46,350 nucleotides of DNA, taken from positions 1-46,350 of the forward strand of contig CAMAGI010000006.1 of NCBI GenBank assembly GCA_945833775.1. Direction: 5' to 3'. Below the pieces are notes generated by a model that saw only the letters and a program-made list of their open reading frames with translations, searched no databases and had not been told where the DNA came from. Source of the stretch: an uncultured Lachnospiraceae bacterium (lineage in GTDB: Bacteria; Bacillota; Clostridia; Lachnospirales; Lachnospiraceae). Position 1 is the stretch's first letter. Each line of letters opens with the position of its first letter. Of this stretch, positions 34,580 to 38,438 are shown piece after piece. Made by a program: the position numbers and the translations under genes.

Positions 34580-34664
34580 TACCCGGTACCGGTTTTTCTA
34601 CAGAGCAATGCAAAAGAGCCGGGCGATATTCCTTTAAATGATTCACGGGAGAGGAGTAGCGCAT

Positions 34665-35618
34665 ATGGCATATTCGTTGAACGATAAAATGGTGATCGGA
34701 GTGTCCTCCAGGGCATTGTTCGATCTTCAGGCAGAGAATGAAATCTTTGAGCGGGAAGGCGTGGAGGCTTATTGCCGCTATCAGGTGGAACATGAGAATG
34801 AACCCTTGAAGCCCGGTCCGGGATTTTCTTTGATCCAGGCGCTGTTGCAGCTGGGAGGAAAGGGAAAGGGATCGGAGCCGGTGGAGGTGATCGTGATGTC
34901 ACGCAATAATCCCGACACCTCTCTTCGGGTTTTCAATTCCATCCGACATTACGGACTGCCGATCACCAGGGCAGTGCTCTCCGGCGGAGCATCGCTGGCA
35001 CCCTATCTGGAGGCATTCGGGACGGATCTTTTTCTGTCGGCCTGTGAGGAGGACGTACAGTGTGCCGTAGACTGTGGAATTGCTGCCGGAATTCTTTGTA
35101 CCAGGCCGCCGGTGGAGAAAGTGCTTCCCTTTCACAACGACGGACAGATCCGTATCGCCTTTGACGGGGATGCCGTTCTCTTTGCGGAGGATTCGGAGTG
35201 GATTTTTAAGGAGCGCGGGCTGAAGGCCTTTGAGGAAAACGAGGAGCAGAACGCAGCTTCCCCGCTGGGGGATGGCCCCTTTGCCAACTTCCTGCGCAAG
35301 CTTTCCGCATTGCAGGGACAGTATGAACCGCAGGTGTGTCCGATTCGGACGGCGCTTGTCACATCGAGAAGCGCTCCCGCCCATGAACGTGTGATTCGCA
35401 CATTGCGGTCCTGGAATGTGAGGGTGGATGAGGCGTTCTTTTTAGGCGGTGTGGAAAAGCGGGAGGTGCTGCGCGCATTCGGGGCTCAGATCTTCTTTGA
35501 CGATCAGTCCGTACATACCCAGAACGCGGCACAGGCCGTTCCGGCAGCCAGGGTTCCCTATCGCAGCAAAAAGAGAGAGAACAGAGAATATGAAGTATTC
35601 CAAGATCGTACAGGCTGA
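34665..35618 (+). CDS. 5'-nucleotidase (cytosolic family)
   Basis: A 317-residue protein matching the cytosolic 5'-nucleotidase family (PF06189 type), which dephosphorylates nucleoside monophosphates. Markers are VIGVSSRALFDLQAENEIFE, VEVIVMSRNNPDTSLRVFNSI, AFDGDAVLFAEDSE (acid-rich motif) and ALVTSRSAPAHERVI. ATG 34665 has GGGAGAGGAG upstream; an ATG at 34638 lacks a site. Its last 29 bases overlap the SfsA-MutY gene in another frame. A nucleotidase beside a repair enzyme may hint at clean-up of damaged nucleotides, but this is inference. Confidence 0.87.
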   Translation: MAYSLNDKMVIGVSSRALFDLQAENEIFEREGVEAYCRYQVEHENEPLKPGPGFSLIQALLQLGGKGKGSEPVEVIVMSRNNPDTSLRVFNSIRHYGLPITRAVLSGGASLAPYLEAFGTDLFLSACEEDVQCAVDCGIAAGILCTRPPVEKVLPFHNDGQIRIAFDGDAVLFAEDSEWIFKERGLKAFEENEEQNAASPLGDGPFANFLRKLSALQGQYEPQVCPIRTALVTSRSAPAHERVIRTLRSWNVRVDEAFFLGGVEKREVLRAFGAQIFFDDQSVHTQNAAQAVPAARVPYRSKKRENREYEVFQDRTG

Positions 35619-37413
35619 GTTTATCGAACGGCCGAACCGCTTCATCGCTTACGTACTTCTCAACGGAAAGCGGGAGCGGGTACATGTGAAAAATACCGGG
35701 CGATGCCGGGAACTATTGGTTTCCGGCGCTGCCGTTTACCTGGAGAAGGGGGACAATCCGAAGAGGGCAACCGCCTATGATCTGATCGCGGTACAAAAGA
35801 ACGGACGTACCATTAATATGGATTCCCAGGCCCCCAACAAGGTGGTGGGCGAGTGGCTGGCGAGCGGTAAAGCATTTGAGAACGTCCGGCTGATCCGCCC
35901 GGAGACCGTGTATGGCAATTCCCGCTTTGATTTCTATGTGGAGACCGACACGGAGAAAATCTTTCTGGAAGTCAAGGGTGTGACACTGGAGGATGACGGA
36001 ATTGTTCGCTTCCCGGATGCTCCCTCGGAGCGCGCCGTAAAGCATGTGGAAGAACTGGCAGCCGCCGCAAAGGCAGGTTACCGGGTTTTTGTGGTTTTTG
36101 TGATACAGATGGAGGGCGTGCGTTTCCTGATGCCCAATTACGAGACCCATGCGCAGTTTGGCGAGGCGTTGGTGAAAGCGCGCAAAGCGGGCGTGGAGAT
36201 TCTCGCCTTCGATTGTCTTGTGGAACCGGATTCCCTTGTTCTGCATGAGCCGGTTCCGGTTTATCTGACCCGGAAGGAGCAGATGGCGGCACAGAACGCC
36301 CCGCGCTTTTCGGATACAGAGAGACTTCGCAAGGTCGTGCAGCGTCTGGTGCCCTGGTATGAACAGGGACACCGGAAGCTGCCCTGGCGCAGCAATCCGC
36401 TCCCCTACTATGTGTGGGTGTCGGAGATCATGCTGCAGCAGACCCGTGTGGAGGCTGTGAAGCCATATTTTGAGCGCTTTATCAGCGCTCTTCCGGATAT
36501 TGCATCGCTGGCGGAGGCGGAGGAGGAAACACTGTTAAAACTCTGGGAGGGGCTGGGATATTATAACCGGGTACGGAATCTGCAGCGGGCGGCAGTGGAG
36601 ATTATGCACAACCACGAAGGCCTTATGCCGGATACCTATGAGGAATTGATTCGGCTTCCCGGAATCGGAAGTTATACGGCGGGTGCCATCGCATCCATCG
36701 CCTTTGGAAAGCCTGTGCCGGCAGTGGACGGCAATGTCCTTCGTGTGCTGTCCCGTGTGCGCAAGGACGACCGGGCAGTCTCGGAGGCGAGGGTGAGGAC
36801 TTCCGTGGAGACTGAATTGCTGCAGGTGATGCCAAAGGATTGCCCCGGTGCCTTTAATCAGGCGCTTATGGAGCTTGGAGCCTGCGTTTGTGTGCCAAAC
36901 GGAACCCCCCATTGCACAGACTGTCCCCTTCGGGAAATCTGTCTTGCCCATCGGGATGGGGAGGAGACGGACTATCCCATAAAGGCAGGGCCCACACCCC
37001 GCAAAATTGAGGAGATGACGGTGCTGATCATTCGGGATGAAAACCGGACCGCGGTGCGAAAGCGCCCGGACAGTGGGCTGCTTGCGGGGATGTATGAATT
37101 TCCCTTTCTGGAGGGGTTTTGCAGTGCGGACGCGGTGGTTCAATATCTGTCCAGGCAGGGATTTCGGATTGTGAGAATTGTCCCTCTGGAGGATGCAAAG
37201 CATATTTTCTCCCACAGAGAATGGCATATGAAGGGTTACATGGTCTGGGCGGATGAGCTGGAGCGCCATCCTGCGAAGGGGGCGTTTTCCGATTGGATTT
37301 ACATTGATCCGCAGGAGACGAAGGATCGTTATCCCATACCGGCGGCCTATTCGGCATACACAAGACTTTTGTCCATGAAATTGGGCAGAGAGAGAATGGA
37401 GGAAGAAACATGA
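35590..37413 (+). CDS. mutY: Fusion of SfsA (nuclease-like) and MutY adenine glycosylase
   Basis: One uninterrupted 607-residue protein. Residues 1 to about 230 are SfsA, named for sugar fermentation stimulation and now often called a DNA/RNA nuclease. A PD-(D/E)xK site is visible as Asp114 (RFDFYV) and Glu127-x-Lys129 (LEVKGV). From about 235 it is MutY, which removes adenine opposite 8-oxoguanine: Glu279 in SEIMLQQT, helix-hairpin-helix LPGIGSYTAGA, catalytic Asp380 in VDGNV (101 residues after the Glu, as in E. coli), iron-sulfur Cys434, 442, 445 and 451, and a NUDIX-like domain with the 8-oxoG-sensing FSH loop (540-542). ATG 35590 lies inside the nucleotidase gene with only a weak AGAGAGA site, suggesting coupling. 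Confidence 0.93.
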   Translation: MKYSKIVQAEFIERPNRFIAYVLLNGKRERVHVKNTGRCRELLVSGAAVYLEKGDNPKRATAYDLIAVQKNGRTINMDSQAPNKVVGEWLASGKAFENVRLIRPETVYGNSRFDFYVETDTEKIFLEVKGVTLEDDGIVRFPDAPSERAVKHVEELAAAAKAGYRVFVVFVIQMEGVRFLMPNYETHAQFGEALVKARKAGVEILAFDCLVEPDSLVLHEPVPVYLTRKEQMAAQNAPRFSDTERLRKVVQRLVPWYEQGHRKLPWRSNPLPYYVWVSEIMLQQTRVEAVKPYFERFISALPDIASLAEAEEETLLKLWEGLGYYNRVRNLQRAAVEIMHNHEGLMPDTYEELIRLPGIGSYTAGAIASIAFGKPVPAVDGNVLRVLSRVRKDDRAVSEARVRTSVETELLQVMPKDCPGAFNQALMELGACVCVPNGTPHCTDCPLREICLAHRDGEETDYPIKAGPTPRKIEEMTVLIIRDENRTAVRKRPDSGLLAGMYEFPFLEGFCSADAVVQYLSRQGFRIVRIVPLEDAKHIFSHREWHMKGYMVWADELERHPAKGAFSDWIYIDPQETKDRYPIPAAYSAYTRLLSMKLGRERMEEET

Positions 37414-38438
37414 AATTATTATCCGTAGTGATTCCCTGTTACAACTCGGAGAATTACATGAAAAATTGTGTGGAGTCTCTTCTGATCGGAGGGGAGGATG
37501 TGGAGATCCTGATCGTGGACGATGGTTCCACCAGGGATAATACCGCTGCGATTGCGGATGCCTATGCCTGCAGATATCCCACCATTGTCAAGGCAATACA
37601 CAAAGAGAACGGCGGTCATGGCTCTGCGGTAAACGTCGGTATCGAAAATGCCACCGGTCTTTATTTTAAGGTCGTGGACAGCGATGACTGGGTGAAGGAG
37701 GAAGCTTATCTGCAGATCCTGGACAAGCTGCGCGAACTTACGGGAGGCGCACGGGTTCTGGACATGCTGGTCAGCAATTTTGTCTATGAAAAGGAAGGCG
37801 AGAAACGCAAGAAGGTGATGCATTACCGCCACATTCTTCCCAAGGATCAGCTCTTTACCTGGTCGGATTGCCACCATTTTCTCAAGGGACACTATATTCT
37901 GATGCATTCCGTAATTTTCCGCACCAAGCTCTTGCAGGAGAATGGTATCCGGCTTCCCGAGCATACCTTCTACGTGGACAACCTCTATGTGTTTGAACCT
38001 CTGCCCTATGTGAAGAATCTGTACTATCTGGACGTCAATTTTTACCGCTACTACATCGGAAGAGAAGATCAGTCCGTGAATGAGCAGGTTATGATCTCAC
38101 GCATCGACCAGCAGATCAAGGTCAACAAAATCATGATTGATTATCTGGTGGAGAAGAAACAGGAGATTATGGGAAACAAGCGATTGTTCCAATACATGCG
38201 CAATTATCTGGAGATTATCACAACGGTATCCTCCGTACTGCTGATTCGTTCCGGAACTTCGGAAAACCTGGAAAAAAAGGCGCAGCTGTGGGAGTATCTG
38301 AAGAGTAAGGACAAGTCCCTCTACCGCTATCTGCGAAACGGACTCATGGGAGGAACCATGAACCTGCCCGGTCGCGGCGGAAGGAAGATTTCGGTTGACG
38401 CCTATAAGATCTGTCAGAAAGTTTTTAAATTCAATTAA
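37410..38438 (+). CDS. Family 2 glycosyltransferase
   Basis: A 342-residue GT-A-fold enzyme that would add a sugar to a cell-surface glycan or lipid. The N-terminal domain has VVIPCYNSENYM, LIVDDGSTRDNT, NGGHGSAVNVGIENA and the nucleotide-sugar motif VVDSDDWV. No membrane helix is obvious; the C-terminal third is helical and basic. The start overlaps the previous stop as ATGA, with GGAGGAAG upstream. No other glycan gene is adjacent, so donor and acceptor are unknown. Confidence 0.9.
   Translation: MKLLSVVIPCYNSENYMKNCVESLLIGGEDVEILIVDDGSTRDNTAAIADAYACRYPTIVKAIHKENGGHGSAVNVGIENATGLYFKVVDSDDWVKEEAYLQILDKLRELTGGARVLDMLVSNFVYEKEGEKRKKVMHYRHILPKDQLFTWSDCHHFLKGHYILMHSVIFRTKLLQENGIRLPEHTFYVDNLYVFEPLPYVKNLYYLDVNFYRYYIGREDQSVNEQVMISRIDQQIKVNKIMIDYLVEKKQEIMGNKRLFQYMRNYLEIITTVSSVLLIRSGTSENLEKKAQLWEYLKSKDKSLYRYLRNGLMGGTMNLPGRGGRKISVDAYKICQKVFKFN

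Follow-up and report, generated by a model that had tools for sequence, protein, structure and literature searches.

The window analysed here (the whole 46,350-nucleotide stretch of contig CAMAGI010000006.1, assembly GCA_945833775.1, from an uncultured Lachnospiraceae bacterium) carries a gene in which sfsA and mutY are joined in a single frame, and we consider it a real two-enzyme fusion, probably of repair. As computed directly, the fusion recurs in other genomes, the active sites of both halves are intact, and apurinic/apyrimidinic (AP) endonucleases are retained alongside it. The gene and the parts of its product are as follows.

35590..37413, + strand: sfsA-mutY fusion gene, 607 aa, its ATG start preceded by a purine-rich stretch at about 35571-35579
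35623..35817, + strand: SfsA_N OB-fold domain, residues 12-76 (PF17746)
35827..36231, + strand: SfsA PD-(D/E)xK domain, residues 80-214 (PF03749)
35929..35976, + strand: predicted nuclease site, D114 (35929-35931), E127 (35968-35970) and K129 (35974-35976), invariant in 71/71 distinct fused sequences
36268..36324, + strand: linker, residues 227-245, delimited by the profile ends
36418..36792, + strand: MutY HhH-GPD domain, residues 277-401 (PF00730), with E279 (36424-36426) and D380 (36727-36729)
36889..36942, + strand: iron-sulfur cluster loop, C434, C442, C445 and C451, invariant in 71/71 fused sequences
37018..37362, + strand: MutY C-terminal NUDIX_4 domain, residues 477-591 (PF14815), with F540-S541-H542 at 37207-37215

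Translation of the frame gives one protein with zero inner stops, whose N-terminus, MKY, is consistent with that of its homologues in the alignment. Its five Pfam domains (SfsA_N, SfsA, HhH-GPD, HHH at residues 342-370, and NUDIX_4) all exceed the curated cut-offs. Residues 1-219 match the NCBIfam model sfsA TIGR00230 at 185.5 bits against a cut-off of 126.45, and residues 250-509 match mutY TIGR01084 at 304.3 bits against 286.5; both halves pass equivalog cut-offs, and the protein is, as judged from its sequence, a complete SfsA and a complete MutY in one chain. The first-pass annotation had described exactly such a frame, and every residue it named is in place: the D and the E-V-K of Escherichia coli SfsA align with D114 and E127-V-K129 (BLASTP), E279, D380 and the cluster cysteines are present, and the F-S/T-H sensor of MutY is found as F540, S541 and H542. 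The position of the catalytic lysine of Nth, which we take as a marker that tells bifunctional from monofunctional glycosylases, is occupied by Tyr362, and the MutY part is therefore predicted to act as a monofunctional glycosylase, with an abasic site as its product.

The two halves resemble known enzymes closely. The MutY half shares with MutY (TIGR01084; 1rrq, 9bs2) the Glu and Asp of the HhH-GPD domain, the iron-sulfur loop and the NUDIX_4 domain with FSH, and is 37-38 percent identical to solved enzymes such as these, which, unlike the window protein, do not bear a complete N-terminal SfsA. The SfsA half has the OB fold and PD-(D/E)xK triad of SfsA (TIGR00230; E. coli 4dap, and Pyrococcus furiosus 4dav with DNA), and is 29 percent identical to E. 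coli SfsA along the length of the E. coli protein; its model reaches template modelling scores of 0.92 to 4dap and 0.88 to 4dav (by target length); unlike known SfsA it is not a separate protein and continues past the linker into MutY. The residues expected to be catalytic are strictly kept: D114, E127 and K129, together with E279, D380 and the four cysteines of MutY, are found in 71 of 71 distinct fused sequences, and the SfsA triad is also present in 16 of 17 unfused neighbours (the remaining one is cut by a contig end) and in 9/9 SfsA-only loci. The invariance of the triad argues that the predicted nuclease site of SfsA is under selection in the fused state, with the reservation that the sequences compared are related to one another.

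The fused architecture is recurrent and concentrated in one family. Among the matches listed, SfsA and HhH-GPD domains occur together in 120/120 homologues, the window protein included. In the genus of the window, SfsA and MutY lie in one frame in 29 of 37 genomes (3 of them seen as two matches in one frame, 2 cut by contig ends), whereas none of the 24 genomes sampled in the order's other families has the fused frame. The search for fusion and for sfsA-mutY adjacency that the first-pass annotation had proposed returned both arrangements in a family sample of 250 genomes, about one per genus, where SfsA is present in 121. In 30 of these 121 the two are fused (contig ends truncate some), in 15 sfsA immediately precedes mutY on the same strand without being joined to it, in 43 SfsA and MutY are located apart, and 13, with a weak or unlisted MutY, were left unclassified; the counts of MutY and endonuclease IV, in this sample as in the class search, refer to the best matches listed and are lower bounds. 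The fused or adjacent state accounts for 45 of the 88 SfsA genomes with a located MutY, and SfsA co-occurs with MutY in 101 of the 121 (odds ratio 3.1, p 2e-4, uncorrected for kinship). In the class search of 342 genomes, the only fused cases among the matches listed were G000 and G082, which belong to the genus of the window. Among the carriers with a name are Lachnospiraceae bacterium CE91-St56, whose genome is complete, and Lachnoclostridium sp. An118; further ones are drafts labelled Dorea, Sellimonas, Tyzzerella and Mediterraneibacter, and all 15 of the named loci (L119-L133) are fused. An assembly or sequencing artefact that joins two genes might be suspected in a source genome that is a draft of 227 contigs; however, the identical frame occurs in many independent genomes, among them the one-contig genomes G145, G095, G251 and G292 and the complete genome AP025576.1 (L125). 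This refutes the artefact, which the first-pass annotation had named as the outcome that would undo its proposal, and we attach negligible probability to it.

The junctions are consistent with a simple route to the fusion. In unfused neighbours the matches to SfsA and MutY are 6-268 nt apart, and the pairs form a series, from spaced genes, through in-frame pairs with one or two stops between them, to a stop abutting the ATG; in L089 and L085 an in-frame stop is followed directly by the mutY ATG. We propose that two adjacent genes, sfsA and mutY, may have been joined by loss of the intervening stop codon in Lachnospiraceae-type bacteria, and that the fused state may have been gained and/or lost more than once. 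Of 87 fused rows (duplicates included), 42 have a linker of 4 aa between the profiles and the others one of 2-60 aa. On a MutY tree of 98 rows, selected out of an initial tree of 185, 12 changes of the fused label are required, at least 9 of them forced by well-supported branches (the bootstrap had not settled), and a single origin appears in 0 percent of 200 bootstrap trees. One clade unites 24 fused rows with 1 unfused row (support 100/99), the window's lineage sits in another, and L039 falls outside both. An approximately unbiased (AU) test against a single fused clade gave p 0.023, or p 0.051 without L039; both tests set aside six nested unfused rows and use groups named after the tree was seen, and are supportive only. 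The changes of label can be fusions, splits, losses or transfers, and losses of SfsA from the fused state are likely. In the one-contig genome G006, SfsA lies 73 kb away. At another locus (L140, about 251-1830) an extra gene is situated between sfsA and mutY, with about 20 nt of the junction repeated on either side of it, like a target-site duplication. A long MutY frame at L171 was rejected as a further fusion: it has no recognisable partner, and its N-terminal 300 residues were judged by eye to be an out-of-frame reading.

The repair context of the fusion is marked by the retention of AP endonucleases. If SfsA stood in for the AP endonuclease, endonuclease IV should be lost more often from fused genomes, yet 28 of 30 keep it, against 154 of 250 in the whole family sample. 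It is found in 14/15 genomes with adjacent genes, 33/43 with the genes apart, 5/13 with a weak or unlisted MutY, and 4/20 that have SfsA but no MutY match. These figures refer to the 149 genomes with matches listed out of the 154 that pass the Nfo cut-off; with the other five, inferred from the genome table, they become 34/43 for genes apart, 7/13 for weak or unlisted MutY and 5/20 without MutY, the fused count being unchanged. Across the 250 genomes, uncorrected for kinship, MutY is positively associated with endonuclease IV (the odds ratio is 6.1, rising to 6.3 once the five are added) and strongly anti-correlated with OGG_N (odds ratio 0.07), the latter being present in 62 of the 69 genomes that lack a MutY match against 71 of the 181 that have one. 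Since MutY is accompanied by endonuclease IV in fused and unfused genomes, it appears to work with this enzyme in Lachnospiraceae-type bacteria whether fused or not. The source genome encodes both endonuclease IV and exonuclease III, and we accordingly reject SfsA as a required replacement of the AP endonuclease. SfsA as a substitute for a missing 8-oxoguanine (8-oxoG) glycosylase was likewise rejected: the double absence of OGG_N and Fpg is no commoner with the fusion (20/33 fused vs 23/47 other, Fisher p 0.37). Neither family was detected in many of the near-complete genomes that have MutY (uncorrected for kinship), OGG2 and AGOG lying outside the search in both comparisons.

We propose, and give close to an even chance, that the fusion protein couples its two functions in repair, with SfsA working on the same DNA as MutY and leaving the AP endonuclease in its place. 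MutY would locate 8-oxoG:A pairs and take out the adenine, and SfsA, with its OB fold and metal-dependent PD-(D/E)xK nuclease domain, would be brought to the same DNA through the fusion, where it could serve as an accessory nuclease or as a DNA-clamping module within the same repair event; the abasic site would most likely still be opened by endonuclease IV or exonuclease III. That SfsA would cut DNA, that it would act on the substrate of MutY, and which strand or end it would cut, we infer. In favour of this reading we count the recurrence of the fusion with the catalytic residues of both halves kept, the co-occurrence of SfsA with MutY, the one-body model of a short-linker member (L081), the HhH-GPD domains in most of the long proteins listed with the L295 SfsA as query, and a handful of sfsA loci next to other base-excision genes, the last three being described below. 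Several observations weigh against such a coupling. No MutY match is seen in 20 of the 121 SfsA genomes of the family sample, and MutY occurs without SfsA in about 80 of the 250, both counts resting on match numbers and E-values; none of the 60 SfsA loci surveyed in the class's other families, picked regardless of MutY and mostly with stretches of 2-3 kb on each side, has MutY beside it. Two sisters of a fused row, L030 (G018) and L237 (G011), keep the operon and MutY, with no SfsA match in either genome. The AlphaFold2 model of the window protein, from 18 sequences, has good domains and a mean predicted local distance difference test (pLDDT) of 87.6, with a predicted template modelling score (pTM) of 0.59. 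A search with E. coli SfsA yielded 91 long proteins; glycosylase domains are absent from all of them, whereas 3 have RNase III domains (P0263, P0269, P0272) and 3 a ThpR-type domain (P0244, P0245, P0271). In P0263, checked directly, SfsA is the C-terminal part, joined to RNase III; for the other five the partner domains come from precomputed Pfam accessions, which we take to carry these names. ThpR is also a neighbour of SfsA in E. coli, and SfsA therefore keeps the company of RNA enzymes too; these fusions point to RNA as much as to DNA.

It is a serious possibility, if in our view a somewhat doubtful one, that the two enzymes are joined for expression only, each half keeping its own job, with SfsA perhaps acting on RNA or another nucleic acid. 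The coexistence of spaced, abutting and fused states in the family, the many genomes that have one enzyme without the other, the variability of the linkers and the RNase III and ThpR-type partners of SfsA would all be accommodated by such an arrangement, yet the fused state recurs or persists over many genera with every catalytic residue kept, and a short-linker member, L081, models as one body. The L081 model (AlphaFold2, 63 sequences) reaches pTM 0.83 and pLDDT 91.6, with pLDDT 94-97 across residues 211-250, which suggests that in L081 the SfsA and MutY parts are held in a fixed arrangement; it differs from the window model in linker and in alignment depth. A more direct division of labour, in which the abasic site produced by MutY is cut by SfsA and both steps fall to a single protein, finds some encouragement in the complete PD-(D/E)xK site and in the predicted monofunctionality of the adjoining MutY, but we consider it quite improbable given the endonuclease IV of the fused genomes, the exonuclease III of the source genome and the MutY kept without SfsA in L030 and L237. 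The first-pass annotation's idea of a fused nuclease acting on the MutY lesion is thereby narrowed: the fusion is widespread in one family, with both sites conserved, whereas the part of SfsA as the needed abasic-site cutter finds no support. SfsA is a predicted nuclease, and PMC1189080 reports non-specific DNA binding by the E. coli protein; together with the solved SfsA-DNA complex, this would also fit a DNA-binding or scanning arm for MutY that does no cutting. Such an arm seems very improbable to us, however, the triad being invariant in the fused sequences beyond the need of a pure binding role.

A broader extension of the coupled-repair reading is that SfsA is generally a nuclease of oxidative base-excision repair, which would make a coordinated second cut (for example next to 8-oxoG, or where endonuclease IV has left a nick) or trim ends, so that 8-oxoG repair would be channelled in one protein; pairings of sfsA with the OGG, MPG, UDG and endonuclease IV families would then be traces of the same role. 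We hold this to be unlikely. Of 119 SfsA loci taken away from MutY, 6 without a called SfsA gene were dropped, and in the remaining 113, the 60 loci mentioned above among them, base-excision genes make up 4 of 223 immediate neighbours (Poisson p 0.001 to 0.006, for an assumed background of 0.2 to 0.3 percent of genes); the queries were single sequences, and further cases may have escaped them. At L364 (G278 C42, 1725-3340) sfsA is followed on the same strand, after a gap of 23 nt, by a gene of the OGG family of 8-oxoG glycosylases, which scores 167.5 bits to TIGR00588, below the cut-off, in a genome without a MutY match; judged by eye, this is the sole directly adjacent sfsA-OGG case among the matches listed, and the pairing looks rare. 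SfsA stands beside an MPG gene at L295 (same strand, gap 26), and is convergent with a UDG family 4 gene at L262 and with endonuclease IV at L301. With the SfsA of L295, which belongs to another family of the order, as query, HhH-GPD was present in 100 of 120 long proteins among the matches listed. Base-excision neighbours are few, two of the four are convergent, and the category was set after the matches were seen; that sfsA generally adjoins genes of base excision is a lead only. TIM-barrel neighbours at L259 and L333 were dropped as endonuclease IV candidates, the former having only weak sugar-epimerase matches (NCBIfam) and the latter being tied to it by phmmer. At L381, SfsA and Fpg are convergent and about 0.5 kb apart; this pairing and those at L295, L262 and L301 were each seen in one genome. 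A 468-aa protein, P0173, combines SfsA with a part that resembles the aminotransferase portion of MocR-type regulators, and may have arisen by chance joining or from a frameshifted neighbour.

Within the window, the fusion gene overlaps a gene on either side.

34638..35618, + strand: 5'-nucleotidase family gene (PF06189), upstream neighbour, 29-nt overlap with the fusion gene
37410..38438, + strand: family 2 glycosyltransferase gene, downstream neighbour, 4-nt overlap with the fusion gene

The linkage of the glycosyltransferase gene to mutY is present at many loci without the fusion too. The overlap with a 5'-nucleotidase gene, which the first-pass annotation took as a possible link to nucleotide damage, is borne out; the link itself is not, and we reject this gene as a functional partner. 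It is a neighbour peculiar to one lineage, lying beside 31 of 85 fused loci (duplicates included, flanks of 1.5-5 kb) and, in the same survey, missing from every locus in the second large fused clade; it also adjoins MutY where SfsA is missing (L237). The source genome, a draft of 2.67 Mb that is 83 percent complete, contains a single SfsA and a single full-length MutY match, which is the fused one; a second MutY match, 28 percent identical, is probably Nth. No protein of the Fpg or OGG_N families was found in this 83 percent of the genome.

Both bacteria and archaea have SfsA, which is present in 7 of 14 control genomes, and we found no established physiological role for it. A literature search on SfsA, SfsA-MutY and MutY fusions returned no paper on the fusion by title or abstract opening, within a coverage that leaves out preprints and most subscription journals. 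The architecture does appear in databases: a JGI entry (P0040) is named A/G-specific adenine glycosylase/sugar fermentation stimulation protein, and NCBI entries (e.g. P0039, P0069) are named for either half. A parallel is provided by the SfsA-RNase III and SfsA-ThpR fusions, in which SfsA is likewise joined to a nucleic-acid enzyme, with another partner and no glycosylase. A recurrent fusion in which the catalytic residues are kept ties SfsA to a well-understood enzyme with a defined substrate, and its activity therefore becomes testable on one specific DNA; in this respect the expectation of the first-pass annotation, that the fusion would make a repair role of SfsA accessible to experiment, is sustained. 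If the two halves cooperate, these Lachnospiraceae would possess a single-chain enzyme of the MutY pathway; if they do not, the fusion would be a matter of co-expression only, and attention would turn to RNA.

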